Positions 45,001 to 60,485 of a stretch of DNA of 64,000 nt are shown here, in pieces (the first letter of the stretch is position 1; each line of letters starts with the position of its first letter). The stretch comes from Hondaea fermentalgiana. Lineage: Eukaryota > Sar > Bigyra > Thraustochytrida > Thraustochytriidae. The DNA lies in assembly GCA_014084085.1 (NCBI GenBank), contig NPFB01000004.1:53595-117594 (forward strand), written 5' to 3'. Below the pieces are notes generated by a model. The model did no database searches. It saw only the letters and a list, made by a program, of their open reading frames with translations, and was not told where the DNA came from. The position numbers and the translations under genes were made by a program.

Positions 45001-46501
45001 TGCCCAACTCGCCGCGCTTTGGCAAGCAAAGCTTGTGCGTGAAGACAAGAAAGCATTTGAGCTTACCCCGGGTTTTGCAGCCCCTGAAGCAGGCCTTTCC
45101 CACAAGCAAGTTCAAACGATGCTGCGCAAAAAGTTCCCCAAAGATTGCCCTGAAATGTATGGTGTCAAGAGCTTTGTGGACAGCAAATTTTGGGTAATGC
45201 GGCAAAAGAGTCTCTGCGCAGGTCTTGCGCTGCTTGCGAGCGGCGCAAAGATCGAACAGGTTCCCGCCCCGGATGATCGCGCCGGCAAGCTGCGCGGTAT
45301 CGTCAAGAGCCTGCTCGAGCGGCTGCCAAGCTCGTTTAATCTTGAAGAGGCAGAAGCTTTGGCAAAACCAGCGCTCGAAGACCCTAAAGCTGCCAATGCA
45401 CCGCTCGTGATGGTGGCGTTGCAAGAGGCCAAGCTTATGAATGATTTGCTTGAGCGCGTGCGCATGACACTTGACGAACTGCAAAAGGCACTCGATGGGC
45501 TGCAAGACATGCGCCCTCCGCTAATCGAAGCTGGGGACATGCTCTTGGCACAGCGGGTGCCCGGCGTGACCACGGATCAGAACCGTACAGAGCTCTCTCA
45601 CACCGGCAGCGGTGGTGACGTTGTCGGTGCGGGTACTGCAGCATCAGGTCAACTGGAAGTAACGAATTGCAGTGAGGATGGCGAGAGATTTTCATGGGCA
45701 GAGATTTCGTGGCCTTCGACGAAGCCATTGGATGGCTGGTTCGATGATCTGGTGCAACACGCAGATCAACTTCGGCACTGGATGCAAGACTTTACAATGC
45801 CCAAATCTTTTTGGCTACCGGGATTTCTTCGACCACTCGGTTTACTCTCGGCTGTACGACAGCTTGCAGCGCGCAGGGACAACGTGGCAGTCGAGACACT
45901 TACTTTTGCGACCGAAGTGACGATGCATCGCGACACGAGCACGATTGATGGCCCTCCTGACTGCGGCGGAGCAGGCATCTTTCTTCATGGCTTGAGCATG
46001 GAGGGTGCACGATATTACTTGGGCGATACCGTGGATGACGCTTTAGAGGAGGAGGAATTTTTTGACGACGAGGATGGCGATCGACGCATAGAAGACGAAA
46101 TGGATGAAGACGACGACGAGGAGGAGGACGAGGGAAATCTTAACAACGAAGGCAGCAGCGGGAATGGAAATGGGCCTCGGAAGGGCCATCGTTACACCGT
46201 GGGTAAGACACGATGCGGAGGCTTTATCGTCCAGAGTGGCCTCCGGAACTCTGTTTTCCCAATGCCTGTCATTCTCCTGCGAACCGTTCCCATCGAGCCG
46301 ATATGGGAGCTTGCGCCAGGCGGCTTTCTTCGAAGTGAAGACGACTCTATCTACAGCTGTCCAGTGTACGCAACGTCGATCCGGAGTGATAGCGAGAATG
46401 ACGCCTCAAATGGCCTCTTGTTTTTGGCAACACTTCGCACACGCGTTCCTTGCCAGCAATGGGTGCTCGCAAATCTATCTTTAGTCTTGCGCCCAGGGTA
46501 G
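33077..46501 (+). CDS. Axonemal dynein heavy chain with N-terminal kelch, IPT and filamin domains
   Basis: 4,474 aa in one uninterrupted exon. An acidic leader (about 20-55) precedes a kelch beta-propeller (about 96-453; GGF/GGW and SGHT signatures), an IPT/TIG domain (about 453-556) and a filamin-type Ig repeat (about 562-675). This N-terminal set is that of the Chlamydomonas outer-arm alpha heavy chain, which suggests an outer-arm role. The tail and linker follow, then AAA1 with GPAVSGKT (1480-1487), AAA2 GEAGAGKS (1822), AAA3 GGAGSGKT (2178) and AAA4 GAGGCGKS (2532). The stalk coiled coil and microtubule-binding domain lie at about 2770-3085. The AAA1 Walker B reads LCLEEF (Glu1532 where Asp is usual). 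A very acidic insert occurs at about 4320-4365. It is the main force generator of flagellar beating. Confidence 0.93.
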   Translation: MEADREPNGGAQEPRWGKNNATTTSTTSSSNKNSNNNEEDEEEEEEEETIEGVAFMYGHEDGLETARTSSSEDAHEAKDDQSEEDDAAAAANMLTWRKGFVVGDKRPTKRSGHTFTVLGSNAFLFGGCDAQSPAGPTGELWQLKMLGNFEWIRLDEQVDKAGGLPVARWLHSACVFDKKFIIVFGGFHSSKRRLNDLWMFDTITLQWSCLFPGTSTAIEDSAANGTDEGKTLCVASKNPASDFAPPPRGGHSASIVEDKMWVFGGYGGQGYARRDHNDLFMLNLPDMTWERAPPLKGTPPRPRSGHTASVIDTSIYIFGGWSAMEQLGDLCILDTRHLTWSILDSFMDPRWGHTACSVEAIPYWKIFYFGGCTGNLAETRRAQGALSARVLTLDTGTCVFDRPKVRGDIPCGRADTTFGYDAKGSRLVMFGGWANQWLDDIFTLDVGCVVGPPYSILGVFPRQGPLTGGTELTISGLDFVHDPNDPRIKVRFIAKGGYILDAPGNFVNGETITCISPDFDSLLQGDVHAAQFEVDVRVAFRDDSFTVTSQKFTFITVTVAEACLAYGPGLIDGGCPGVPTMFVVHANDVTGSQRATGGDEFVVRVSGDEVAVLDATIEDNEDGSYAVEYTAPLAGEYVIEVEYTGTFRDDTGQVYETGKAGPIRGSPFTVNFIEGAARASNKMNGPLLRETVDRKFQATKKLISATRVQLQKAISPGYAVELAADIKAVIAVKEKLYLVETERAVLELDLDLFECIARHLAESYGVKSDKRLREIVAMREEWATITEGQPNLLVQATAALRPHVIAHGDKTQAQLLEYEETVLAYERSIKHLPCFSWNAGPEGGMNALAEAVEAHEARLVTHAEMQKLAKLFEFPALCHGANTAMNRVERTLEHAQDLWEVAADALIFMDESKATLWRNVRPTLLEEEARKRAKTVSLLPRDVHDTDAFRGLERDVKNFLLTCPLISHLGSEAMRVRHWDELRAAIGKSFTSPAENKKMRLGEVVDLNLHEVADQVEDVANKAAKEAKVENALTRIERMWSTSQFQEDDERFEAADAPPYLSLPEEELASLDADQAAVDAMANSPHALPFMDPYATAEGVKGKGVKYWKNILASVVKIVNSLASIQSSWAYLATLFLQSDEVKEALPSDAKRFAALDEDVRKLLEDAKSNKLLLSFCAKPGRADNMDEVNEQLALCKTSLGNFIASKRASFPRFYFAAESQVLDILSNGSKPTEVLKHLSAVFPAISTLQTEGVYASHWLSLDKQECGAFDTPVVLKGQVETYLRDVDVACQQALKTSLSKSLTRYKTQQRRDWIVHKNEKGFAPEVLQIALLVCRISVTQDIEAAFAAIKSGNRDAMRDYSAKSRQQLADMAKAARQTTLTLAPSDLIRIACVLALDVHTRDLVDSFVQRQISSSASFDWQRQLKQRQTGATEMCGANFTYGFEYVGHFTRISPTPAFDQALLVTAQALRLQMGCVVRGPAVSGKTEVIRELGATLGRYCLIFNCTPQTTLHTLASLFAGLAATGSWLCLEEFDRLPQNVLAACVGRVKRLFDARSRGQTSVLDESSLDSVSHHQQLEQQTSMKVVEIPLRVDFALFATLGKSQGRTSLPEGLDTYLRPVTTSVPERRPICEALLFAGGFEQATSLSAKICNLFASCHEVLPERPFYDWSLRALRALVTRAGHMRREWTLDPTTQEDETSLLLRALLNLLQPIIAPGDVQIFNGLVIDFFPLPTSTPTDLQAPSSEDANNQEGEEYETSKDDVQTRAKKAQRVDTGSETELEIAVKEASAARELWPDQDFLSTVVNLEELLKVRQAVFLVGEAGAGKSECWRTLQRSRQLLKRKTSTKVLLPQAHSADFFFGRLSHSNGDWEDGLLCKATRDCATAPTPEDGGPEENWIVLDGELSSIWFDSLNTLLDDNKTLSLASGERVSLPWHTRVLFELSTLEHMSPSAVSRAAIIHLSSAAGSQWRALIASWIQRKEWDDHAKEAITTFFHDYVALALAEFDKRTFRPLVPVLHTEIITTLLKMLDAVIGADEERLVGTAENLKDATQALEPAFVYCMVWALGAPLTEDAGADQRRELSGWWKTTFKNVKFPARDTVFDYYLDTATGKFELWKNSPQFTAAAAAAAADPINGQNGPDASSLHGIFVPTPETSSAMFWLERMIALEYGFLLIGGAGSGKTRLVRTALRDLNPNEQVSASIALQYNSSAASLHQALIVHLEKKNALVWGPPGDDKQLAVFLDDLHLPQRTTARGEHQVHASLRQVLEMGQAYDGASLGTKQIQNCHYVGSATCRKGQRPLSKRLQRHFVTFGVAFPGTSSLQAIFGPILQSHLRHFEDGVKALGNTLVEAVAGLHMDIMVKLRPSAAAPHYDFNLRHITRVFQGLLTAQPADFNDATTFVKLWCHESERVYADGLVSSIDLIKFRDLLLGQARRKFPTANMTKHCGDDPSDPLIVCHFAPQDGQVDDDPVYRFVNAYEDLVPALNAALDDLNTFKLPLDLVFFDEAISHVCRIARVLHASRGHCLLVGAGGCGKSSLAWVAAQVSNLSLSLLPVRDASSAQELKEELRNLCTAVGVGGERRCVLVRDRDVRQGGLGLLAYASDLAMTGARLAELFSEEERESIAQSVAINAKAAGYKPDVAGSFAYFTEKVQKDLHWIFSFDPKACDLQSWLRAFPALAQGTVVNWFHPWPEKALRSVAVMLLEDLELESDEIRRGAETFMVSAYTSSQKLAQSFATSADITTVHPLRAFVDCQRAFCKDLYSRRAANRQKKSRLENVAERMHEADRLVNSLEEAIQAQEEDAEEKTMLAEAQAEEVARDAAVVAEESKLVVVEQAKVDEIAAEAQAIKDDAQAEFDKAEPLLKKALDALDLLTKKDLGECKAMGSPPKGVDDVFCAVLILLAGVDPRIKLNKYGKPEDLSWDACKKDLMGNINEFLNQLKYFREAVEDFRVPKVNWANVRPILQLDHFQPETVERKNKAAGALASWVENIVVYYDTILCVEPKRQLLQEVEGRLAKATSVLDRVKAKVGELEIRLAKLREDLAEAETLRDEAVQLLQLSQLKLGLAQRLTTALSSETDRWAATIDELDKEFEVLLGDALLRSVFLAYAGPFDASCRKLLATKEWLPFLTKAAAGEAIPVSENLLPASIVSSRHERTSWQVEGLPADPTSSENAALLMACNSKRWPLVLDPHLHALAWLRTMCSHHSESWVTLHIDSPELVSKLGVAIAAGHTVVLEGIEPSLTNCTDMMSLMLRQAIKRGARDIVTIGNAEVELHEKFRLILHTSCSRARFPADLLTACSLINFSASQDGLEDELLELVARKEHPDLSSQIDQLTNLQRRLVVQREDLEDAILVSLADAEGDVCADEPLIGELEKSKTRLDSIANLAAATTDNTKLLKDFISKYRPVARRSALLFGIMSQMHKLHPSYTYSLNVFASMLVRGIALVTKPPPTSDEASGMAERLRAKVRNVVITERFAWDKSTLRDEALNALEGSDASSDVSSGALVGAQETVESISAISDAEIEERCSVLNRSITNMVFTFLRIGLLDRHALTVASHLCFQVLHEEGELENGEVDALVTCRPAASTGSMGPLSTWMPADVWARIKGLESVDGLQSIGDDIMSDSDDWKEWYLSSAPEEKRIPGELGELSEHKRLLIILAIRPDRLCEKLGGFVSSNMGPLFVDRQAAFDMDGVMQVTSASTPIIVLSSRAVDAVALVEALALRSERGLEQRPPSMRPATPAKPKARKGDQDEADGGDGSEAATSRLVTIFLGGGKIAFDAVEESILACAEAGHWIMLRDVHLAKDWLPRLENVLRAAATAAHDEFRCFMSAPAESFHRDVPQVLSQSAVKVAWDAGPDFRTNLEVAWASFPQSRIDACTSNRFEFQQTLFALSVFHSLMLGRRKFGHLGWSNSWVFLDSDVQLAADAAERYVAASEVQPGSIAWRELRCIVADLLYGGRIDESRDLEIVRAQLAALWQAKLVREDKKAFELTPGFAAPEAGLSHKQVQTMLRKKFPKDCPEMYGVKSFVDSKFWVMRQKSLCAGLALLASGAKIEQVPAPDDRAGKLRGIVKSLLERLPSSFNLEEAEALAKPALEDPKAANAPLVMVALQEAKLMNDLLERVRMTLDELQKALDGLQDMRPPLIEAGDMLLAQRVPGVTTDQNRTELSHTGSGGDVVGAGTAASGQLEVTNCSEDGERFSWAEISWPSTKPLDGWFDDLVQHADQLRHWMQDFTMPKSFWLPGFLRPLGLLSAVRQLAARRDNVAVETLTFATEVTMHRDTSTIDGPPDCGGAGIFLHGLSMEGARYYLGDTVDDALEEEEFFDDEDGDRRIEDEMDEDDDEEEDEGNLNNEGSSGNGNGPRKGHRYTVGKTRCGGFIVQSGLRNSVFPMPVILLRTVPIEPIWELAPGGFLRSEDDSIYSCPVYATSIRSDSENDASNGLLFLATLRTRVPCQQWVLANLSLVLRPG

Positions 46502-46829: not shown

Positions 46830-49055
46830 TTAGGATTCCTCAAGAACAGGTACAGAGCCCTGTCGAATAGCCTTGTGAAAAAGAATGCGATTCAATTCCT
46901 GTTTCATGAATGCATCCGTCGGGAGTGGCTTGGTCCAGAGAAGATCAATCGCAGTCTCGTCGTCGACGACGTCCCCCGAAATAAGGACAACGACGCAGTC
47001 CGTCGTTGCGCGCTCACGAACACGGTGCGTATAGGAGGATTCCATGTCGTCGAGAATGATAATTTGAAAGGAACCGTTGTCGATGGTTTCCAAGGTTTTC
47101 TCAGAGGGGGTGGTAACCTGGATCTTTAGGTCTCGCCCGAGACGTTCAATTGCTCGTGAGATAATGACACCGCTCGTGTGGTGTTTGGCCATGACAAGAA
47201 TTTGAAGCGCGGCGGGCAATGGCAGGACGCTATTAAGAAGCGCCGCGACATCGCTGGGTTTCGCGGGGAGCGGCTTGAGTACAAATCGATCGGCGCCAGC
47301 CTCGAGATGCTCGGTAGACATGTCATTCGCAGAGCAACCGATGATGGCGCCACGAAAACCGCTTTCCCGGAGAGCGCGAATCGTTTCCTCGCCCGTCATG
47401 GCAACACGCATGGGATCGGGCATGTAATGGTCCATGATGACGAGGTCGTATGGCGTAGACGCGGCCATGGAGAGCGCCTCGGGACCGCTCGAGGCTTCGT
47501 GCAGGTCCCAGCCACGCGCCACGCGAGCCAGAACACGTTTCGTCATGGCGCGCACCATTTTGTCATCGTCGACATGAAGTACCTTTGCTCGTGCCCGAAA
47601 AGGCTTAAGATTTGGGTTCTGAGCAGAGGCGGCCGCAGGATCCGGCGATGCCTCTGGAAGCGGAAGCGAGATACGGAAGCGCGAACCAGGGCAACCCGGC
47701 ACGCCAGAGTCATACTCGTCGGTATCAAGATGGAGGAGACCACCCATTTTCTCGGCTAGAAGCTTGGCAAGGGCCAAACCAACACCAGTTCCTTGACGCA
47801 TGGTGTCGAGCGTCTCTTGGTACTTTTGAAAAAGGTACTCACGTTCCGCGGTCGATATGCCGGGCCCCGAATCTTCAACAAAAATGTGAACCCAGCGCTC
47901 GTGCTGAGCGTCACGTTCGGCGCGCACGCGCAAGAAGCCAGAGGTGACGAACCGCACTGCATTCTGCGCCACATTGTTCACAAGCTGAAGAAGCCGAAGC
48001 CGATCAGCTTGCACCCACAGGTCCTCGGAGCACACGACCTCGGCCTCGACGCCTTCGTTCACATTGCGCTTCAAAGCAGCGTGAACGGGCTCGAGTACAT
48101 CCTTGCGCAATGACGTTGGCTCTGTGCGAAGTTCGAGCAAGCCGACGGAAAATCGGTTGAGGTCGAGCATGTTGCGCAGCATTTCATCAATGAAGCGCAA
48201 ACTCACGTCCATGAGCTGGAGGTCATTGAGTATCCCGTTCAGAGGGCTCGTGAGGGGTGTCTGTTTTCTCAGACGTTGGTTTTCTTTGGCGACTGCAGCT
48301 TGCACAAAGACGACCGCCGAACAGCAAACAGAGAGCGGATTTCGGATCTCATGCGCAATGAATTCATTAAGAGCGCGCTCCGCTGTCGTTGCTGCGAGTA
48401 GTGCGGTATAGCGTTCCATGATGGCAGCATTGACGCTCATGGAGTCGCGATTCGCGCGATAGCGCACAATTGTTAGGTACAGAGCGGCGATAAGAACGAG
48501 GCAGACCGCGAAGAGAACGCCGCCGGGAACATGGTTTGCGAATCCGAGACCGAGGCCGCCCGCGAGGCCGGCAACGACGAGGGTGCAAGCGACAGCGAGA
48601 CGTTCCCCGGTGAGCCAGAACCAGGAGCTTCGAGCCTTTGTTGCCTGCGAAGTCGTCTCTGCGTCTTTGTTGCACTCGCGGACGAGAAAGGCTGGTAGGT
48701 CGAGCTCAAAATCTCGGGTGCTTTCTTCGGCGGGAAGATTGCGAACGCTCTTCGAGAAGATACCCGAGGCACCCTCGTAGCCATCGAGGAGGACGCTTTG
48801 ATAGCCGCTGCCGAGATCTCCGCCTTGCGTCCCGCTCTGTATGGTTCGAGGGGTCACGGCGACGCTGCTCAGGTCGAGGCCCTCAAAGTTCGTCACGAGC
48901 TGAATCCCCTTTGGCGCCACCAGCATCGGCGCCGCCAGGTGCGCTGCCGCGCTCGCCGCTGTGCCATCTTCGTCCCTGCTGTCGAGCTCGGAGTCCTCCC
49001 CGCCCGACGACAGCGTCTGCGCCGTGGCCTCGGAGACCTCCGTCCGCGAGCTCAT
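46830..49055 (-). CDS. Membrane hybrid histidine kinase with two receiver domains
   Basis: 741 aa. Two hydrophobic segments (about 150-196) precede a HisKA domain with the phosphorylated histidine in FIAHEIRNPL (His235) and a HATPase domain with the N-box NVAQNAV, DSGPGIS and GTGVGLAL. Receiver 1 follows: LHVDDDKMVRAM, phospho-acceptor Asp542 in LVIMDHYMP, and LKPLPAK. Receiver 2 (about 610-730) keeps IIILDDM (Asp669/670) and TKPLP but has lost the N-terminal acidic pair (LVMAKHH), so its Mg2+ site looks impaired. The N-terminal 145 residues hold no recognisable sensor domain. Eukaryotic hybrid kinases usually pass phosphate to an HPt protein; none is nearby. Confidence 0.87.
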   Translation of the reverse strand: MSSRTEVSEATAQTLSSGGEDSELDSRDEDGTAASAAAHLAAPMLVAPKGIQLVTNFEGLDLSSVAVTPRTIQSGTQGGDLGSGYQSVLLDGYEGASGIFSKSVRNLPAEESTRDFELDLPAFLVRECNKDAETTSQATKARSSWFWLTGERLAVACTLVVAGLAGGLGLGFANHVPGGVLFAVCLVLIAALYLTIVRYRANRDSMSVNAAIMERYTALLAATTAERALNEFIAHEIRNPLSVCCSAVVFVQAAVAKENQRLRKQTPLTSPLNGILNDLQLMDVSLRFIDEMLRNMLDLNRFSVGLLELRTEPTSLRKDVLEPVHAALKRNVNEGVEAEVVCSEDLWVQADRLRLLQLVNNVAQNAVRFVTSGFLRVRAERDAQHERWVHIFVEDSGPGISTAEREYLFQKYQETLDTMRQGTGVGLALAKLLAEKMGGLLHLDTDEYDSGVPGCPGSRFRISLPLPEASPDPAAASAQNPNLKPFRARAKVLHVDDDKMVRAMTKRVLARVARGWDLHEASSGPEALSMAASTPYDLVIMDHYMPDPMRVAMTGEETIRALRESGFRGAIIGCSANDMSTEHLEAGADRFVLKPLPAKPSDVAALLNSVLPLPAALQILVMAKHHTSGVIISRAIERLGRDLKIQVTTPSEKTLETIDNGSFQIIILDDMESSYTHRVRERATTDCVVVLISGDVVDDETAIDLLWTKPLPTDAFMKQELNRILFHKAIRQGSVPVLEES

Positions 49056-49624: not shown

Positions 49625-50821
49625 CTAGGGAACCGAAACAGCGGCCTTGTTCGAGACCTTTACGAAGCGGTAGTGCGCGACGAACCACTCGTTGCCCGGT
49701 CCATCGCGACCATTGTCGTACTTGAACAGCTCAGAGCAGGCCATGCAGAAAAGACGCCAGGCTTGGTATTTCTCCGAGGCTTTGTCGCCATAGCCTTCCT
49801 TGAAGAATTTGATGAGGTCGCCCCGGTTCGCATCAAGGTTTTCCAGCCAGTGTTCAAGGGTGCGCGAGTAATGCACGCCATTAATTGCCCATCGGCGATC
49901 CACGCGAAGGTGATCATTGATGAAGAGAAAGAGATCGTACGAGGGCATTGTGCCGCCGGAGAAGAAGTTGTCCGACATCCAGCCGTCTTGAAAGTGATAG
50001 GGGACGTCGCGATGGCAAAAGACGTGGACCATGACCTTGCCATCATCCTTGAGCCATTTTGACATGTTTTTGAAGAGCATCCAGTAGTTTTTGACGTGCT
50101 CGAGCATCTCGATACTGCAGATGCGGTCAAAGGACGCTTCGGGAAGATCGAGATCGTTGACGTCGCAGGTCCTGATCTCGACATTGGAGAGACCGTGTTC
50201 CTTGGCGCGTGCCATGATGAACTCGCGTTGAGAGTTCGAGTGCGAGACACCGATGACCTTGAGGTTGGGAAAGTGCTTTCCAATATACAGGCTGAGCGAG
50301 CCCCATCCGCAGCCCAGGTCCAGAACATCGGCGCCGTCGGGGAGGGCGGCAAGTTCTGCGCGCTCGCAAAAGAGCGCGAGCGCGTGGTCCTCGGCCTCGG
50401 CGAGCGTCGTCTTTGCGTCCGGGTACTGGCAGCACGAGTACTTCATTTGAGGACCCATCTTTTTGATGAAAAAGTCGGCGGGGACCTCGTAGTGCTGCTC
50501 TGCTGAGGCATCGGTTTGCTCGGCAATGCCTCGGGTCTTGAGGTCTTGCACAAAGGCGTCAATGTAGTCTGCCTGCTGCTCCTGGTCTCCGTGGAAAGTG
50601 ACGGTGTTGATGGTCGACGCCAGGAGCTTGCGCATGCCGAGGCGGACGACTCGATCCGGCATGTACCCCTTTTCGATCATGGGAAGGAGCGCCGGCTGCA
50701 CGACATCGTTCACAAGTTTGTCCATGACGGTCTGGTTCCCCTCGCCCTTTTCTCGCAGCGCTGCGGCCTTGCTCACGGACTTGCTCTCCTCGGCCATCGA
50801 GCCTTCTTCGTGCAGCGCCAT
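49625..50821 (-). CDS. CFA-synthase/coclaurine-NMT-like SAM methyltransferase
   Basis: 398 aa. The SAM-binding motif I is VLDLGCGWGSL, with an upstream HYEVP...MKYSCCQYP segment equivalent to the substrate and active-site entry of the cyclopropane-fatty-acid-synthase superfamily. It continues with FDRICSIEMLEHVKNYWMLF and VHVFCHRDVPYHF, ending with WRLFCMACSELF. This arrangement is typical of the eukaryotic coclaurine N-methyltransferase-like branch, found in plants and many protists without alkaloids. The acceptor is unknown: an amine or an unsaturated lipid are both possible. No membrane segment. It is transcribed divergently from the large FAD-CFA fusion gene. Confidence 0.82.
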   Translation of the reverse strand: MALHEEGSMAEESKSVSKAAALREKGEGNQTVMDKLVNDVVQPALLPMIEKGYMPDRVVRLGMRKLLASTINTVTFHGDQEQQADYIDAFVQDLKTRGIAEQTDASAEQHYEVPADFFIKKMGPQMKYSCCQYPDAKTTLAEAEDHALALFCERAELAALPDGADVLDLGCGWGSLSLYIGKHFPNLKVIGVSHSNSQREFIMARAKEHGLSNVEIRTCDVNDLDLPEASFDRICSIEMLEHVKNYWMLFKNMSKWLKDDGKVMVHVFCHRDVPYHFQDGWMSDNFFSGGTMPSYDLFLFINDHLRVDRRWAINGVHYSRTLEHWLENLDANRGDLIKFFKEGYGDKASEKYQAWRLFCMACSELFKYDNGRDGPGNEWFVAHYRFVKVSNKAAVSVP

Positions 50822-51721
50822 GGTTCACGAACGTGCCCCTGCTTTGCTTTTTTGCTTGGCTTTGCTTTGATTCCTCGCTCGCTCCTCGCCCGCCTGCTTT
50901 CTTGTTCGCTCGGCGCGGTCGGCTGATTGATCGTTTGCGAGGTGCCTCTGCTGCTCACGAGGATGACCTTGAAGATGAGAAAGATAGAGAGACGTCTTGT
51001 TGTTGATGTTCTGAGGCCAAAGCGCGAGTAACTAAAAGATGAGAAAAGATCAGTCTTCGCCACGACCGCGAGCGCGGGACGCAGTTTCTTCACTGCATGC
51101 AACGAGCGAGGCCGGCGAGGCCCGGCTGCTTCTTCCCTCCGCGCCTTTCCCGCATCCGCTCCCTCCCTCCGCGGCGTGACGGAGGCTGGATCCAGCGGCA
51201 TCATCATCGCGGAGTCGGCGCGGGAGGAGCAGGGGTTCGTCGCCGGCCGCGCCGACTCGGGGCGAGCCCGGGGAAGCGCGGGAAGGAAGGAGAACTCGAC
51301 AGATAGTTTCAGGGGTCATCAGGCGACGCAAGGGACCCCGGCACGAGAGCGGGGAGCGAGCGAGGCAGCGAAGGAAGGCACGGAGGGAGAGGGAAGGTTG
51401 TTGTATCCTATTTAGGGATGGGCGCGCACGCCAAGGGGGGCTCGGCACGGAGGAAAAGAAAGGCGAGGCGAGGCGAGCCTCTGTCCCGCAGCGGCGGGAG
51501 AAGCGAGTGGGAAGAGCGGCGGCTCCTCCACACACTGCGGCATGATGTGGGCTGCTCGGGCCCTCATAAGTCACAGCGATCAGCAGTTAGTCTGTGGAAC
51601 GCCTCCACGCTGTGTGGACCAGGACCGGTGCGTAGCTGTGGGTAACGGCGGCGTCGCCTCACAAGCCGGCGAGGTTCGTTCGTATTATCGCGCGCCTCGC
51701 GGCCAGTGGGGGTGCCCAGAA

Positions 51722-51759
51722 GCTTCGCGTGTTCGCGAATCCTGCTTTATTCGCGAAGC
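51722..51759. promoter_or_regulatory. Inverted repeat with paired TTCGCGAA boxes
   Basis: GCTTCGCG (51722-51729) is the reverse complement of CGCGAAGC (51752-51759). Inside are two copies of the palindrome TTCGCGAA about 18 bp apart. It could be a dimer-binding site or a hairpin; its role is unproven. Confidence 0.3.
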
Positions 51760-51913
51760 CCGCTTCGACTTTCCGGCCGCACGCGATCCTGATCATGACG
51801 GCCTCGACGCGGGCAGGTAGCCTTTGAGGGAGACGAGGAGCGGAGCGGAGTCGGTTCTGCAGAGTCAGTTGTGTCTGCGCGCGGCGGCGCCGCCCCGCAG
51901 CGCCCTGACACCT

Positions 51914-51933
51914 CCCCCCCCCCCCCCCCCCCC
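51914..51933 (+). repeat. 20-nt cytosine homopolymer
   Basis: Twenty consecutive C, intergenic. Its exact length may be affected by sequencing error. Confidence 0.85.
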
Positions 51934-53075
51934 GCAGTGCAGTGCGGGCTGGTGTGTACCGCTTCCAAACGTGTACGCGATGCGCGCCGCAGTGCCGTGC
52001 CAGGGCCTGATCCTAAAAATATCCAACCTGGCCTACCATGGCCAACTATAAACTAACCTACCCAGCGCGTCCGTGGCTCTGCAGCCGTTCGCTCTCCCTC
52101 CTTTCCTCCCTCAATCCCTCCCTCCCTCGCCCGCCGCGCTCTCCCGGCCGGTCTGGCGTGCCGGGTCTGGTCTGTTCGGCGTCGACGCAGGCGGCCTACG
52201 CCTTCCTTCCTCGCAGGCACGCAAACCAGTCACTCACTCATCTTCCCGTTTCTCCCTTTCCCAGCTTACTTATACTAGCCCAAACACAGGCAGCTCCTCC
52301 GCGACGCCAAGTAGGAGGCAGGATTCTCGCGCAAGATCTTCGCCGCCTCGCGGTCGCGGCAACTCGTGCCAGGTCCGGCGGTCTTCTGCTGCTACTTCGT
52401 CGTCGCGTCGTCGTCTTCTTCTTCTTCTTCTTCGTCGTCGGGATCGGCGTCATCGCGGTCGTCTACCTCGAGCTATGGAGTGAGGGAGGGATCGTGCGTG
52501 AATGGTCGGTCGAGTCCCGTTTCGATCATGGCGTTGAATAACCCCGAAGCGAACAGACGACAACCAGGCTGACGGAGAGACTGACAAAGCAAGCACTCGA
52601 AGCAAACCAACCATCGCGTCCAAACAAACCCCGAACGGCTTTGGGCGCTAGCGACAACAAGCGAGCGAGCGAGCGAGCGAGCGAGGGAGCGAGGGGCCGT
52701 GCCAACTCGACTCGACTCAACTCGACTCGACTCATCGGAGATCAACTTTCACGGGCGTCTGCACTGCCGAGCGAGCGAGGCGCAGCGCGAGGTCGAGCGC
52801 GCCGAGTCCAGCGCTGCACGACGGCGCCGCCGCTCTTCCGGTAGACGGAGCTCGTGCGCCTGGCCGACATCACGCGTCGAACTGCCAATTCCCTCCAGTG
52901 GACTGGGACTGACTTGCACGGTCAGCAGCAAGAGCAATTTTAGCAAGAGCTGAGCATAGATTGCAGAGGAGCTGGCGAGGAGGATAGCAGACGCAGACGC
53001 AGACGCAGACGCAGACCAGAGCAGAACAGAGCAGAGCAAAACAGACCAGCATCGAGCGAGAAAAGGGGACAGATC

Positions 53076-56000
53076 ATGACCTCGGAGCAGGAACAGAGGA
53101 CACAGAATGTGGCCGTCGTGGGCTCCGGCATCGCAGGGCTCGCGAGCGCGCTCTGCCTGGCCCAGCAAGGATGCAAGGTGACTCTCTTTGAGCGCGAAGA
53201 CCGCCTCGGCGGACACTCGCTCACGTTCCCGGGCGAAGGCGACAGGCCGCCCGTGGATCTCGGATTCCAGGTCATGAACAACACAACCTATCCGTACCTG
53301 ACAAGCCTCTTTGACTCGCTCGGCGTTGATACCGAGCCGTCCGACATGTCTTTCGCCTTTAGCGTGGACGACGGACGCGTCGAGTGGAGCTCGGACGCGC
53401 TCTTTGCCCAGCCGGGCAACGCGCGCGACCCGGCATTCCTCTACATGCTGCGAGAGATCTTTCGCTTCGCGAACGCCACCGAGGTTCTTGATGAGAACAA
53501 AAAGGAAGAGTTCGACACGATGACTCTCGGCGAGTACCTTGATTTGCGCGGATACAGCGAGCGTTTCCGCTCAGACTACATTCTCCCCACCACTGCCGCC
53601 ATCTGGAGCGTGCCGAATGGCACAATGGAGCAGCACCCAGTCAAGCCACTTGTTGCGTTCATGGCCAATCATCATCTCCTCGCCCCGCTTGGAGAACGCC
53701 CTCGATGGCGCGTCGTTGCCCAGCGCAGCGAAGCCTACGTCGACGCCATCGCCAAGGAACTTGAGCGCCTCGGTGCTTCGATCCAGCTTGAGGCCGCGGT
53801 CAAGGCCGTGCGTCTCAACAAGAACCATGGAAACGAAGCCAAAAGTGGCGGCTGCCGAATTACCTTCGAGCAAAAGGGCAAAGAGGATGCCGAGGCGAAT
53901 TTTGACCATGTCATCCTCGCCTCGCATTCCGATGTCAGCGCACGCATCCTTGGCGATGGCGACGCAGAGGCACCGTATACCGACCTCGTAAAGCGCGTTC
54001 GCTACCAGCCGAACCGGGTCATCCTGCACTCGGATGTCTCACAAATGCCCCGAGAGCGCGCGGCGTGGGCTTCCTGGAATGTCCTCGACAAGCGCGCGAG
54101 TCCTGATGCAGAGGGATCCCGACCTTCGCAGAACTCACGCGACATTTGCGTCACCTACTGGCTTAACCACCTGCAGAATCTGCCAGAGTCAGCACCGCTT
54201 TTGCTCTGCACACTCAACCCAATCTCCGAGCCTGACGCCGACAAGGTCATTTTCGAGACAACCTTGGACCATCCCGTCTTTGACACCGCGGCGATGGATG
54301 CCCAACGACAAATCAACAAGGCTCAGGCACAAGCCGATGCGGGTTCTCGCTCCCTATGGTTTGCTGGCGCCTGGCTTGGGTCGGGCTTCCACGAGGACGG
54401 CATTCGCTCTGCCCTCGCCGTCTGTAAGGCGCTTGCCGGCTCGGTCCCGCGCTGGGCCGTACAAGTCGGGGCACCCGAGCATCCGGGTCTGCAGCTCATT
54501 CGCGGCCCTAGCCCTAGCAAGTCTGTAAGCCAGCGACTTGGCCTTCAGGTCTTCCAGGCCGTTGCGTCGCGAGGCATCAAGCGTGGCCACCTCGTCATGA
54601 TGCTCCCGGACGGTAATGATCTCCATTTTGGACGTGAATCTGCTGCTGATGCCAAGAGCCGTGGCGAGCCCACCGTGCGGATGCGCATTCAGGATCTCGG
54701 GATGCTCGCCAAATGCGTCGCCGAGTCCGACATTGGCCTTGGCGAGGCCTACATGCATCGCATGTTCGACGTCGACGATCTGCCTTCGCTCTTCGATGTT
54801 CTCATCGTCAACAACCAAACGCTTCGCGAGACCCTTAACCCGCTTGGTCTTTCTGCAAACTCGGGTCTCGCCTCCTTTGCTGGGGCTGTCATGTACTGCA
54901 TCGGCAACATCGTCGAGCACATTCGTCATCTTGGCAACGACAACACCGTCACTGGATCGCGCCGCAACATCGAGGCACACTATGACGCGGGAAACAGCAT
55001 GTACAAGCTCTTTCTCGATGACACACTTACGTATTCGTGTGGTCTCCATAGACGCGAGTACGGCGCAGAAAATGCTGCACCGGGCGAGGAGCTTCCGCTG
55101 TACGAAGCGCAGCTGGCCAAGCTCGACAGCATCATTCGCAAGGCCGACTTGAAGTCTTCGGACCATGTTCTCGAGATCGGCTGCGGCTGGGGGTCGTTCG
55201 CCATCCGCGCAGCGAGCACAGTCGGCTGCAGGGTTACCGGTATCACCATCTCCACCGAGCAGCTCGCCGAGGCCCAGGCACGCGTTCGTGCCGCGGGACT
55301 CGAGGACAAGGTGAATCTCATGATTTTTGATTACCGCAAAATGGGCGTGCCGCAGCGGACCCGAGCGCAAGCTGGCAAAAAGAACACGGGAGGCGAGACT
55401 TTTTACGAGCAAGACCTGGCGCCCGGACACTTTGACAAGATCGTCTCCATTGAAATGCTCGAAGCGGTTGGTCATGACCACTTGCCCGAGTACTTTGAGA
55501 CCGTTGATCGCATGCTCAAGCCCGGAGGCCGCGCTGTGATCCAGGTTATCTCCATCAAGGACGACCGCTACGAAGAGTATCGACGCACCTCGGATTTCAT
55601 TCGGCGATACATTTTCCCTGGAGGCCACATGCCTTGCGAGGCTTCCATTCGCTGGGCATCCGAGGAAACCGACCTCCTCCTTGGCAACGTAGACGACATC
55701 GGACCCGACTACGCTGTTACGCTGCGTATGTGGCGCGAGAACTTTGTCAAGAATCGAGATGCCATCCTCGCTTTGGGCTACCCCGAGACTTTTTTTCGTT
55801 GCTTCGAAATGTACTTTGCGTACTGCGAGGCAGGCTTTGCTCAAAAGTACATTCACAACTACCATCTCACCTTTACAAAGGACGAAAAGGCCAAGTCCGC
55901 AGTGCGGGCAGAGGAACGCGAGGCCGAGAGTGCTGCGCGGTACAACCGGACGGTCATTCCGGCTGTCTTGGCCATCATGGCACTGATTGCGAGCCTTTCG

Positions 56001-57044
56001 CTGACCCTCAACCCGTTAATTCGCGAGGTCATGTCCATTCTGTGCAGTGCCCTGCTCTTCACCTCACTCATTGGCGACTTTTTGCCACGCATCAACCCCG
56101 CCATGGACACAACCTCGCGCCGAGCCACACGTTTTGGAAAGCTCGTCGGGGTTCGTCTTGCGATTTCGCTCTCCATGTGTGTCATTGTGGCCGGTCTCAT
56201 CGCCTTCCATGAGGTCCTGTACACAACACGACTTGCCGGTAGCGATGCCTACATGTCTTTTGATGCCGAAAACGTGAACAGCGAGATCGTCGCCGATGAC
56301 ACGGGCTTTGTCAACAATCTCTCTGAAGGCCCAGCACCTGTCCTTCACTTTTGCAACTGGCAAAGCGCAGAGTCTTCTTGCCAGCGACCTGCAAACGCTG
56401 TCGCTGCTGCAGTGAGCACGGGAGTCGCTGAAGCCACGGGGAAGCTCTATGTGCGAAGCCCGATGCATTTTGTGGTTGGCTGTCTGGCGTTTGCGTCCGT
56501 GTCTCGCTTTTTGCTCGAACGCAATTTGATGAACGCTCTGCACGCACTCGCATTAATGATGCTGAGTGTGCTTTCGCTTTCGTCGAATGCGAAAATGTCC
56601 ACCTCGGCGCTCGGCCTCGCCATTGTTCATGGTGCCAGCGAGCTGCACGCCTCTATTAGCGCTGCGCGTACCTTGCTAGGACTCCGGGGCCTCATGTGGA
56701 ATGATAGTCTTTACCGCCGTGCTTGGAGCATTGACATTTCCAGCATGCTGATCATCCGCTGGGTTCCCGTGCCGGTGCTTTTGTCTCCGGTCATTCTCCG
56801 TGCGCCGTGGCCTGTTTTGCTTGCCATTTGCATGATTGCCGTTCGAGAGACTTCGGTGCTCATCGACACACTTCTCGCTTTGAAAGAGGATTACGAGAAC
56901 CGCCTCAACGCAGCTGACCTCTTGGACCAGGCGCGCAACCGTGACGAGATCGTCAACGCCATGGTCGGTGAGAAAGCACGTCGCAACGAGGCTGCTGCTA
57001 ATGCTGATGCTAATGCTACTGCTTCCGTGGCACTTCGTACGTGA
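53076..57044 (+). CDS. FAD amine-oxidase-like / CFA-synthase methyltransferase / membrane fusion
   Basis: 1,322 aa as read to the first stop. Residues 10-470 form a FAD-dependent amine-oxidase-like domain: GSGIAG (16-21), DRLGGHSLTF, and the C-terminal SLWFAGAWLGSGFHEDGI. Residues about 480-935 are a cyclopropane-fatty-acid-synthase-type methyltransferase: NIEAHYDAGNSMYKLFLDD, SAM motif VLEIGCGWGSF (about 699), and active-site counterparts Cys655, Glu796, Gln823 (His in E. coli Cfa) and Tyr879. Residues about 960-1275 are a polytopic region with about seven hydrophobic spans, weakly TLC-like. The FAD-CFA fusion is known in plant cyclopropane synthases; the membrane tail is extra. The stop lies inside a GTACGT donor, and splicing to 57226 would extend the protein into DUF1365. 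Confidence 0.85.
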   Translation: MTSEQEQRTQNVAVVGSGIAGLASALCLAQQGCKVTLFEREDRLGGHSLTFPGEGDRPPVDLGFQVMNNTTYPYLTSLFDSLGVDTEPSDMSFAFSVDDGRVEWSSDALFAQPGNARDPAFLYMLREIFRFANATEVLDENKKEEFDTMTLGEYLDLRGYSERFRSDYILPTTAAIWSVPNGTMEQHPVKPLVAFMANHHLLAPLGERPRWRVVAQRSEAYVDAIAKELERLGASIQLEAAVKAVRLNKNHGNEAKSGGCRITFEQKGKEDAEANFDHVILASHSDVSARILGDGDAEAPYTDLVKRVRYQPNRVILHSDVSQMPRERAAWASWNVLDKRASPDAEGSRPSQNSRDICVTYWLNHLQNLPESAPLLLCTLNPISEPDADKVIFETTLDHPVFDTAAMDAQRQINKAQAQADAGSRSLWFAGAWLGSGFHEDGIRSALAVCKALAGSVPRWAVQVGAPEHPGLQLIRGPSPSKSVSQRLGLQVFQAVASRGIKRGHLVMMLPDGNDLHFGRESAADAKSRGEPTVRMRIQDLGMLAKCVAESDIGLGEAYMHRMFDVDDLPSLFDVLIVNNQTLRETLNPLGLSANSGLASFAGAVMYCIGNIVEHIRHLGNDNTVTGSRRNIEAHYDAGNSMYKLFLDDTLTYSCGLHRREYGAENAAPGEELPLYEAQLAKLDSIIRKADLKSSDHVLEIGCGWGSFAIRAASTVGCRVTGITISTEQLAEAQARVRAAGLEDKVNLMIFDYRKMGVPQRTRAQAGKKNTGGETFYEQDLAPGHFDKIVSIEMLEAVGHDHLPEYFETVDRMLKPGGRAVIQVISIKDDRYEEYRRTSDFIRRYIFPGGHMPCEASIRWASEETDLLLGNVDDIGPDYAVTLRMWRENFVKNRDAILALGYPETFFRCFEMYFAYCEAGFAQKYIHNYHLTFTKDEKAKSAVRAEEREAESAARYNRTVIPAVLAIMALIASLSLTLNPLIREVMSILCSALLFTSLIGDFLPRINPAMDTTSRRATRFGKLVGVRLAISLSMCVIVAGLIAFHEVLYTTRLAGSDAYMSFDAENVNSEIVADDTGFVNNLSEGPAPVLHFCNWQSAESSCQRPANAVAAAVSTGVAEATGKLYVRSPMHFVVGCLAFASVSRFLLERNLMNALHALALMMLSVLSLSSNAKMSTSALGLAIVHGASELHASISAARTLLGLRGLMWNDSLYRRAWSIDISSMLIIRWVPVPVLLSPVILRAPWPVLLAICMIAVRETSVLIDTLLALKEDYENRLNAADLLDQARNRDEIVNAMVGEKARRNEAAANADANATASVALRT

Positions 57045-57225
57045 TGAATCGACCTCAAGTGCGCACCTCGCACCTCGTTCCCATGTCGCTCGATAGTTCG
57101 CCAAAGAAAACTGCTTGGACAACTAACATTTTTGCTTCTTTTTACCCTTCTCAACATATGGCCGGCCTCCTTGTCTGCCCGCCCTTCATCTGCACGCTCT
57201 GATTTACCTTTCAACTCACTCGCAG
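57037..57225 (+). other. Predicted intron joining the FAD-CFA gene to DUF1365
   Basis: Donor GTACGT at 57037 overlaps the TGA at 57042-57044. The acceptor CAG ends at 57225 after pyrimidine-rich sequence. At 189 nt it is within the size range of the other introns. Splicing gives codon C+GT (Arg) and keeps the frame into SGIYHGTLYHQRN. Copy B of the THEM6-like pair uses the same donor hexamer. Confidence 0.65.
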
Positions 57226-58289
57226 GTTCTGGAATTTACCATGGAACACTCTATCACCAGCGCAACAAGGTTGAAGGCGCTTCCCCAGCTCGGCACGCTT
57301 TCAAGTACAACGTTTGGATGGCCTTGGTGAATCTGGATGAGGTGAAACGAGGCGAAGCCTTTGACGACACGCAATTTATCAGCGCTAATCGTGCGAATAT
57401 CTTTTCGTGGTGCCGCAAGGATCACTTTGTAGGAACCCAAGGAGTTGCTCAGCCACTTGATGAGTGCGTGCGGGATCTCGTCAAGGAGCGGACCGGGCGC
57501 GCCGTTTCCGCCAATGGCTCTGTGCTCCTACTTACCAACATTCGTTGCTTTGGATTTTCTTTCAATCCCGTTTCCGTGTACTACTGTCTCAATGCCTCAG
57601 GGACGGCTCTAGAAGCCGCCGTGCTCGAAGTTTCCAACACGCCTTGGTTACAGAAGCGAATGTACGTCCTTCCCTTCTTCGACGACGACGACGACGACTG
57701 CAAGCACAAAGACGACTTGAATGAAAAGAAACGTGTGTGGCGCTCCAAGTGGAAGAAGGACTTCCACGTGAGTCCCTTTTTCGACGTTTTCTTCAATTAT
57801 GAGTGGGTTCTCAACCTTCCCCGGGAACACATCAACATCCGTGCTCTCAGCACCCGGCGAGATCCGGAGACAGACGGCGCAGACGAAGCTCCTGCGCGCA
57901 AAGACGAGCCGTGGACACAAGTGGTCGGCACGGCCCCAACTGATCTTTTGCAAAAGAGAAACGCTTCAGAGCAAGGTGACGAGGAGTCGGAGTCTCGTAC
58001 ATTTATTGTCAACCTCAACCTGCAGCGAGCTTCGGCTAGCGAGCGATGGCGCCAACTGCTTCACCAGCCGCTCATGACTTTTTCCATCGTCCTGTACATT
58101 CACGTGCACGCCTTTATTGTGATGGTTCGCAAGGGCTGCGCGCAAAAGTTGACGCCGCGAAACGCTCCGGGTCTCGGCCTCGGAGACGCCGCGCGACATT
58201 TACTTATCTTCACAATTGCAGGTCTCGCAGGCATCTGGCGCATTCTAACAGCACCATTTGTCAAGACGCGGGCGCAAGCCCGGGTCTAG
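57226..58289 (+). CDS. DUF1365 domain, probably the last exon of the FAD-CFA fusion
   Basis: 354 codons including the stop. Matches DUF1365 (COG3496) from its very first residues: IYHGTLYHQRN, RHAFKYNVWMALVNLDEV, CFGFSFNPVSVYYCLN, VLEVSNTPWLQKRMYVLPFF and FHVSPFFDVFFNYEW, with a C-terminal hydrophobic segment. The first ATG in this frame falls inside the conserved N-terminal block (WMALV), so the domain cannot start on its own here. Joining to the upstream gene through 57036/57226 gives about 1,674 aa. In bacteria DUF1365 genes often sit next to CFA-synthase and FAD-oxidoreductase genes, which supports a joint role in acyl-chain modification. Its biochemical function is not established. An Asp run (near residue 158) is encoded by GACGAC repeats. 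Confidence 0.8.
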
Positions 58290-59318: not shown

Positions 59319-60485
59319 ATGGTGGTGGCAGAGGCGGAGCGCGAGAAGGAGCGCGGCAACTCGCTGCTGCGCGAAGGCAAGAAGGACGAGGCCGCGGAAG
59401 CGTACTCGGCGGCGATCGAGCTCGACGGGTCGAACCACGTGTATTTCTCGAACAGAGCCCACGTGTACAACCTGTTGGGCGACTTTCCCAGCGCGCTCGC
59501 CGATGCGAACCGGTGCGTCGAGCTCAAGCCAGACTGGGCAAAGGGCTACAACCGCCTCGCGATGGCCTTTCAAGGCCTTGGCGATCAAAAGAAATACGAG
59601 GATGCACTTGCCAAGTGGCGCGAGCTCGGCGGCGCGCCTGCTGCGACGAGGTCATCGGGGACCTCGGCGGCCTCGGCGACGGCATCGGGCCCCAGCAGCT
59701 TGCCTGACATGCTCTCCAAAGTACAGCTCGGACTTCGCGTCTTTCTCGTACTCAACTTTGCACTCTATGTCTTTCCTCTGACGTCTTCGTATGGAGCCTT
59801 TCAACGCGCGCTCTTCTCTGCGTGCGGAGTCTACATGATTCACCTTTACCGCGTGCACGGGAGACCGGTGCGTACACAAGCGTACGCCCAGCGTATTGTC
59901 ACAGATTATCGTTCCCACTACGCCATGGCGGCAATGCTCTTCGCTTTTAGTGGGTCTGGCCGCTTGATCGCCTTGATGCCGCACCTGCTCAGTGAGATTG
60001 GGTATGTTGCAGACTACGTGCTCACTGCCCAACCGCAGATTGCCGCGCAGCTTGCTCCGCCCCTCAACACTCATGTGTTGCCCCGTTTCACGCAGACTCC
60101 GCCGGAGCAATGGGCCAGTCTTGATCTGCGTTCCAAGTGGCAGCGTTACAACCAGGTCTCGATGCACTACGCAGCAAGTCTCGAAGTGGCGATTGGCCTT
60201 GGTCTCATCGTGGAGCTCGTCACGCCAAGCCGTAGCTTTTTGGTTCTCTTTGCGTACTGGCACTTTTTGCGTATTCGTTACATGGTTTCTGACGACATCA
60301 AGCAAACTTTTCGGGCGCTCGACACCAAGATCGCCAGCTATGCATCTCGAAACGCTACTGCAATGAACCTTTACGGAAAGATCCGCACATTTGCAGGGTC
60401 AATGGTGCAGATGCCTTCCCAGGGTCAGCCAGCGCCGGGCGCAGGGGGGCTCGCTGGTCTCGCCTCGCGATGCACCATTTCTTAG
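59319..60485 (+). CDS. TPR domain fused to a TMEM33/Pom33-like membrane domain
   Basis: 388 aa. Residues 1-105 are an Hop/STI1-type TPR domain (AEREKERGNSLLREGKKDEA, YSAAIELDGSNHVYFSNRAH, ALADANRCVELKPDWAKGY). After a Ser/Ala/Thr linker, residues about 125-340 form a multi-pass region ending in LLVLFAYWHFLRIRYM-like sequence (LVLFAYWHFLRIRYMVSDDI), the signature of TMEM33/Pom33/Per33 proteins. Those reside in the ER and nuclear envelope and help shape reticular ER and nuclear pores. The cytosolic TPR could dock Hsp70 or Hsp90 C-termini. This combination is not one I know from other organisms. A Ser/Cys-ended tail (RCTIS) closes the protein. Confidence 0.78.
   Translation: MVVAEAEREKERGNSLLREGKKDEAAEAYSAAIELDGSNHVYFSNRAHVYNLLGDFPSALADANRCVELKPDWAKGYNRLAMAFQGLGDQKKYEDALAKWRELGGAPAATRSSGTSAASATASGPSSLPDMLSKVQLGLRVFLVLNFALYVFPLTSSYGAFQRALFSACGVYMIHLYRVHGRPVRTQAYAQRIVTDYRSHYAMAAMLFAFSGSGRLIALMPHLLSEIGYVADYVLTAQPQIAAQLAPPLNTHVLPRFTQTPPEQWASLDLRSKWQRYNQVSMHYAASLEVAIGLGLIVELVTPSRSFLVLFAYWHFLRIRYMVSDDIKQTFRALDTKIASYASRNATAMNLYGKIRTFAGSMVQMPSQGQPAPGAGGLAGLASRCTIS

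Follow-up and report, generated by a model that had tools for sequence, protein, structure and literature searches.

Can the successive enzymes of a bacterial fatty acid pathway be carried by one eukaryotic polypeptide? The question arises from a 64,000-nucleotide stretch (the window) of the thraustochytrid Hondaea fermentalgiana (Labyrinthulomycetes; contig NPFB01000004.1, positions 53,595 to 117,594, forward strand). Here, an open reading frame (ORF1) encoding a flavin adenine dinucleotide (FAD) oxidase-like domain, a cyclopropane fatty acid (CFA) synthase-type methylase and a membrane module is followed, beyond a stop codon, by a frame encoding a DUF1365 domain. ORF1 and the DUF1365 frame very probably constitute a real single fused gene. 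From the enzyme families that it joins, we propose, with a probability of about 0.6, that its product is a monomethyl-furan fatty acid synthase contained in one polypeptide, and that a separate enzyme supplies the second methyl group. The three enzyme families that lead to monomethyl furan fatty acids lie in one Hondaea chain, next to which a candidate member of the pathway's fourth family is encoded.

The reference system is bacterial. In excerpts from Lemke 2020 (PMC7380195), mutants assign the four enzymes UfaM, UfaD, UfaO and FufM, and in vitro assays are described for UfaD, UfaO and FufM. The product of UfaM is 11Me-12t-18:1, which UfaD converts to 11Me-10t,12t-18:2; UfaO, with O2, turns the latter into the furan 9M5-FuFA, and a second methyl group is then attached by FufM (PMC7380195).

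Gene structure and evidence for the fusion

The sequence-only reading of this locus had claimed that the ORF1 stop lies within a splice donor, that a CAG acceptor opens the DUF1365 frame in phase at the point where DUF1365 similarity begins, that no ATG precedes the conserved DUF1365 N-terminus, and that a single polypeptide of about 1,674 residues results, comprising FAD oxidase, CFA methylase, membrane module and DUF1365. These claims hold. The terminal TGA of ORF1 sits inside GTACGTGA and overlaps the donor GTACGT (57037-57042), the acceptor CAG occupies 57223-57225, and the DUF1365 frame opens behind it in the phase of ORF1. Joining 53076-57036 to 57226-58289 yields 1,674 amino acids with no internal stop. 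Position 1 of the Pfam DUF1365 profile falls on residue 35 of the 57132 ORF, which is the third residue after the acceptor. When translated in the DUF1365 frame, the intron contains no Met codon. The first in-frame Met of the DUF1365 exon is exon residue 31, which lies 3' of near-invariant positions: in an alignment of 72 homologues, G6 is conserved in 68/68, H10 and R12 in 69/69 and F25 in 70/70 of those with a residue at the position.

An in-phase join is no proof of fusion, because 69 of the 167 GT/AG pairs around the junction (8 donors and 21 acceptors, pairs of at least 60 bp) also gave open in-frame joins, and we rejected it as an argument. The fusion is supported because homologues contain the junction. 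P0006, a protein of 1,586 residues from an MMETSP transcriptome, aligns near full length (44% identity across 99% of the query, junction included), and P0007 crosses the junction as one continuous protein, running from the FAD and CFA domains through the membrane module into the initial portion of DUF1365. A search of relatives for the same fusion, which the earlier note had proposed, was therefore positive. A search with the whole fusion found 28 proteins, among which DUF1365 is listed for only P0001, P0006 and P0007. The merger, which the sequence-only reading had credited to this eukaryote, is real but not private to the species, since relatives share it and the GenBank model of the gene is already fused.

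That GenBank model (P0001, 'Sphingolipid C9-methyltransferase', 1,526 residues) represents the same Hondaea gene and agrees with our model at 100% identity over residues 1-1298 and 1446-1674. It differs in its intron, 56968-57600, through which residues 1299-1445 are lost, 124 of them from the DUF1365 exon. We consider this intron less likely than 57037-57225, because those 124 residues would be lost and their aligned part is 60/116 identical in P0006. In P0007, 44/86 residues of the missing part are identical, and it carries positions conserved in nearly all of the 72 homologues. The GenBank intron may represent an alternative isoform. Donor 57037 is preferred over the GenBank donor at 56968, as a choice rather than a proof, for two reasons only: it leaves a linker similar in length to those of P0006 and P0007 (about 20-26 residues in these two), and P0002, at 72% identity, has the residues RT directly ahead of its own stop, as ORF1 does with donor 57037.

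Other relatives lack the joined form: P0002-P0005 terminate near the intron position. For two of these relatives a separate DUF1365 protein is listed, P0149 alongside P0003 (longest contig 301,552) and P0153 alongside P0005 (29,142), where we infer from equal longest-contig values that both proteins of a pair lie on the same contig. A comparable arrangement in Hondaea, with two transcripts and a DUF1365 protein started from its own 5' exon or from a non-ATG codon, is highly improbable. It would accommodate the stop codon that divides the DUF1365 frame from ORF1, and there are short DUF1365 proteins (P0150 and P0151) with a Met just ahead of the domain; however, P0006 and P0007 contain the junction, the GenBank model is itself fused, and no in-frame ATG lies upstream of the conserved DUF1365 start in Hondaea.

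Table 1 Features of the fused gene and its head-to-head neighbour (positions within the window).
Feature	Position	Strand	Details
FufM/LIME1/coclaurine-N-methyltransferase-like SAM methylase (neighbour)	49625..50821	-	398 aa; head-to-head with the fusion
Divergent intergenic region	50822..53075	.	2,254 bp between the two ATGs
ORF1	53076-57044	+	1,322 codons; terminal TGA 57042-57044
UfaD-like domain (FAD amine-oxidase/desaturase family), residues 1-465	53076..54470	+	Pfam Amino_oxidase 3.2e-21, NAD_binding_8 1.4e-14
UfaM-like domain (CFA-type SAM methylase), residues 480-940	54513..55895	+	Pfam CMAS 5.9e-72
TLC-like membrane module, residues 956-1302	55941..56981	+	Six hydropathy-predicted membrane helices; no His-His pair
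Intron	57037..57225	+	GT-AG, phase 1 (C/GT, Arg), 189 bp; coding junction present in P0006 and P0007
Exon 2: UfaO-like DUF1365 domain, residues 1322-1674	57226..58289	+	Pfam DUF1365 8.8e-51; model pLDDT (predicted local distance difference test) 90.6
SAM, S-adenosylmethionine; aa, amino acids.

Domains of the fusion protein

The UfaD-like domain matches, in tblastn searches, FAD genes that adjoin bacterial DUF1365 genes (for example 40% identity at locus L009). Its position N-terminal to the CFA domain is a layout shared with plant-type cyclopropane synthase. The methylase domain was placed by a 52-row tree, for which, as for the residue counts below, bacterial frames of 280-520 residues that could be cut out were used (53 of 62 UfaM-type and 41 of 50 FufM-like genes); in the tree, the wrong-frame row F_L060 was dropped and row M_L071 relabelled as FufM-like. 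The fusion's methylase clusters with eukaryotic FAD-CFA proteins (support 97/89), and these join the UfaM-type genes beside bacterial DUF1365 at 98/89. Inspection of the alignments revealed Gln823 in the fusion versus a His in the three solved CFA synthases shown. The residue is Gln in 26/26 eukaryotic and 51/53 bacterial UfaM-type rows, and His in 40/41 bacterial FufM-like rows; the exceptions are a gap (M_L033), the mislabelled FufM-like row M_L071 and the wrong-frame row F_L060. Glu796 and Tyr879 are conserved, and Cys655 is Cys in 14/26 eukaryotic rows. We take these four positions to belong to the bicarbonate site of CFA synthase.

The name 'Sphingolipid C9-methyltransferase' on the fusion gene is probably misplaced. 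Another Hondaea gene (L002:994-2394, + strand, genome contig C14) encodes a CMAS protein of 466 residues whose N-terminal part is hydrophobic. In the same tree this protein sits on a long branch, apart from the clade that contains the fusion's methylase domain. By sequence, it looks more like the sphingolipid C9-methyltransferase of Hondaea than the fusion does.

The module between the UfaM-like and UfaO-like domains looks like a TLC fold, the fold of ceramide synthases, in structure comparison. The sequence-only reading was right about the presence of a membrane module, and its identity is refined here. The assignment draws on structure comparison and on real TLC domains in relatives, because the Pfam and profile evidence is insufficient alone. 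Other eukaryotic FAD-CFA proteins have TLC or TLC-like sequence C-terminal to their CFA domain, and PF03798 matches P0016, P0022 and P0024 with E-values of 2.4e-18 to 4.3e-15. A Pfam scan of the labyrinthulid proteins gave no match in the module among the best 25 families per long protein, and a profile-profile comparison of the labyrinthulid module with TLC was not significant. In a TLC profile search, P0006 and P0007 ranked first, weakly; in the same test the Hondaea module scored no better than its own shuffled copies, and in a test with the algal profile the top rank was taken by a shuffled copy. Ceramide synthases carry a His-His motif, which P0016-type TLC domains also show. In all seven labyrinthulid modules (7/7), the residue after the His is Ala, Thr or Ser instead of a second His. 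The Hondaea module thus differs from the TLC domain of ceramide synthases (Lac1, CerS6) in its missing His-His pair and Pfam match. A separate fusion layout is seen in P0016, P0017, P0022 and P0024, FAD-CFA proteins of about 1,400-1,600 residues in which an algal-type module is followed by a clear TLC domain and for which DUF1365 is not listed.

The fusion's DUF1365 domain is the single DUF1365 match found in the 36-Mb Hondaea assembly. A sequence search found no solved structure for DUF1365, and a Foldseek search with the confidently predicted model of the domain returned no matches at E <= 0.001. The model is β-rich, and two of its residues, His1331 and His1501, are conserved. VIA-align gave middling Z-scores with a haemophore (6.8), nitrobindin-type proteins (5.5-6.3) and a phycobiliprotein lyase (5.3). 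As a weak lead from the model, the domain could be a heme- or ligand-binding barrel.

The FufM-like neighbour and its bacterial counterparts

A CMAS search of the Hondaea genome gave seven matches, of which two are halves of the fusion's own domain. A further match, at a distance of 2,254 bp, falls in a FufM-like gene that is transcribed divergently from the fusion and had been overlooked in the sequence-only reading (Table 1). Against the PDB, the best match of this neighbour is a coclaurine N-methyltransferase (7.2e-65), with the best CFA synthase reaching only 3.2e-27. Arabidopsis LIME1/AT4G33110 is presumably of the coclaurine-N-methyltransferase type as well. One 100/100 branch of the 52-row tree sets the neighbour and the bacterial FufM-like genes apart from the fusion's methylase and the bacterial UfaM-type genes. 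The neighbour's group of four forms no single clade of its own in this tree (2 changes) but is still on the FufM side. In excerpts from Omata 2024 (PMC10940516), AT4G33110 shares 37.87% identity with FufM. The intergenic region could possibly serve as a shared promoter.

In a second relative, P0003 (FAD, CFA and transmembrane parts), P0149 (DUF1365) and P0031 (FufM-like) have the same longest-contig entry, 301,552 bases, which suggests that the pairing with a FufM-like gene is old. The short DUF1365 protein P0150, which has its own Met, and the FufM-like P0037 share a longest contig of 227,721, maybe an unfused yet linked state.

We compared this arrangement with 85 bacterial DUF1365 loci, comprising 5 annotated plasmid loci and 80 genome loci. 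The latter are the best 80 of 588 confirmed stretches, ranked by similarity to a Rhizobium DUF1365, so that the counts describe mainly Alphaproteobacteria, with close relatives among them. A UfaD-like gene is present in 85/85 loci, a UfaM-type gene in 62/85 and a FufM-like gene in 50/85, in line with the earlier statement that bacteria cluster FAD oxidase, DUF1365 and CFA genes. In 49 of these 50 loci the FufM-like gene and the FAD gene stand head-to-head, with a median gap of 1,118 bp between the matched stretches; in the remaining one they share a strand. Hondaea therefore shares with the bacterial pathway (Rhodobacter/Cereibacter sphaeroides, Rhodopseudomonas palustris) both its enzyme families and the head-to-head placement of FufM-like and UfaD-like sequences. 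In contrast, the bacterial proteins are separate, a TLC-like module was not seen among them and the usual gene order is D-O-M (UfaD, UfaO, UfaM), whereas Hondaea has one polypeptide in the order D-M-TLC-O.

In four of the five plasmid loci a sigma factor is accompanied by an anti-sigma gene, which is ChrR-family in three of them; a photolyase is present in two, from Pseudoalteromonas and Aeromonas. In a eukaryote, a table of SAK1-dependent singlet-oxygen genes of Chlamydomonas, in the excerpted text of PMC4067076, holds CFA1, CFA2 and a DUF1365 gene; CFA2 has a second entry there as CPLD27, coclaurine N-methyltransferase. The table suggests co-regulation of this gene set in Chlamydomonas.

Proposed function and alternative products

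The fused domain composition occurs in the Hondaea lineage, and its pairing with a FufM-like gene has a counterpart in bacteria. From these observations we infer a reaction order. The UfaM domain would transfer a methyl group from SAM onto an 18:1-type acyl chain of a membrane lipid, the UfaD domain would convert the methyl-branched chain into a conjugated diene with FAD and O2, and the UfaO (DUF1365) domain would insert O2-derived oxygen and close the furan ring. The TLC-like module would anchor the protein in the membrane of the endoplasmic reticulum or of lipid droplets, and might also serve to present the acyl chain. The neighbour would afterwards add the second methyl to the monomethyl furan fatty acid. 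We tentatively extend this to Labyrinthulomycetes as a group, at somewhat short of an even chance: a single membrane polypeptide, built around a lipid-handling core of TLC fold, would carry out every step from unsaturated acyl lipid to monomethyl furan, and the dimethylating enzyme would be expressed from a shared divergent promoter.

Plants provide a partial parallel. Excerpts from Omata 2024 (PMC10940516) name Arabidopsis candidates at lipid droplets: AT3G23510 (resembling both UfaM and UfaD), AT1G30130 (DUF1365) and AT4G33110 (resembling FufM). AT3G23510 (AtUFAMD1) and the cotton cyclopropane synthases have the FAD domain ahead of a CFA-type methylase, as in Hondaea; however, the Arabidopsis DUF1365 protein is encoded by a separate gene, and the cotton GhCPS1/2 products are cyclopropanes, where we propose furans for Hondaea.

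The sequence-only reading had left the choice between cyclopropane, methyl-branched and furan products; we favor furans over cyclopropanes and over merely methyl-branched chains. A real fusion that makes cyclopropane fatty acids, as the cotton FAD-CFA synthases do, with DUF1365 modifying the product, is quite improbable. Its methylase is a member of the CFA family, and GhCPS1/2, with the same D-M layout, yield cyclopropanes in yeast. Yet in the same excerpted source (PMC3132707) GhCPS3 and an Agrobacterium pair of oxidase and cyclopropane synthase yielded none, and the role of the oxidase was left open. A cyclopropane product would also leave UfaD, UfaO and the FufM-like neighbour unexplained, and the fusion has Gln where the solved CFA synthases have His, a difference that may bear on the product. 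It is unlikely, though less so, that the product is a methyl-branched or otherwise oxidized non-furan acyl chain, with UfaO acting on another lipid. This is consistent with the UfaO chemistry being reported from two alphaproteobacterial proteins in the excerpts of PMC7380195, and with the failure of sequence searches to find a solved DUF1365 structure, but is disfavored by the presence of three pathway domains and a FufM-like gene together, as in bacteria.

Several points weigh against a furan synthase, in addition to the cyclopropanes made by the cotton proteins of like layout. Likeness to UfaM, UfaD, UfaO and FufM was set by families and by DUF1365-linked bacterial genes rather than by the characterized RSP/RPA sequences, and none of the 80 genome loci is titled R. 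sphaeroides or R. palustris. Searches of open-licence papers turned up none that reports furan fatty acids in thraustochytrids; the excerpted text of one paper that they returned names Isochrysis and Phaeodactylum. The FufM-like family is so broad (7,159 of 8,000 scored candidates at E <= 0.001) that sequence does not fix the neighbour's substrate. Finally, the fusion is not a simple operon copy, because its D-M-TLC-O order differs from the bacterial one.

The Hondaea fusion is a variant of the known furan fatty acid pathway in which the fused layout is new. FAD-CFA fusion was already known, and a fused model of the Hondaea gene was already in the databases, with a name and an intron that look wrong. 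In the open-licence literature we recognized no paper on a DUF1365 fusion, and no description of a FAD-CFA-TLC-DUF1365 protein or of its pairing with a FufM-like gene. If the proposal is correct, oil-rich labyrinthulomycete protists would be a direct marine source of furan fatty acids. For eukaryotes, the papers examined go no further than to propose such a synthesis by homology, in plants. With three catalytic domains in one gene and the fourth candidate beside it, a eukaryotic pathway becomes testable by expressing one or two genes. The proposal would link a TLC-like module to furan fatty acid chemistry, and offers a possible reason for the oxidase domain of eukaryotic FAD-CFA proteins, whose role was left open in 2011 (excerpts of PMC3132707). 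The analysis also flags apparent errors in a public gene model and name in a group of organisms used for oils.

Other genes of the window

Directly beyond the FufM-like gene, positions 46830-49055 (- strand) encode a hybrid histidine kinase with ATPase and receiver domains, here in a eukaryote. A single frame of 4,474 codons at 33077-46501 (+ strand) encodes a dynein heavy chain with kelch repeats and a filamin repeat toward its N-terminus. On the other side of the fusion, a TPR repeat is joined with a TMEM33/POM33 membrane domain at 59319-60485 (+ strand).

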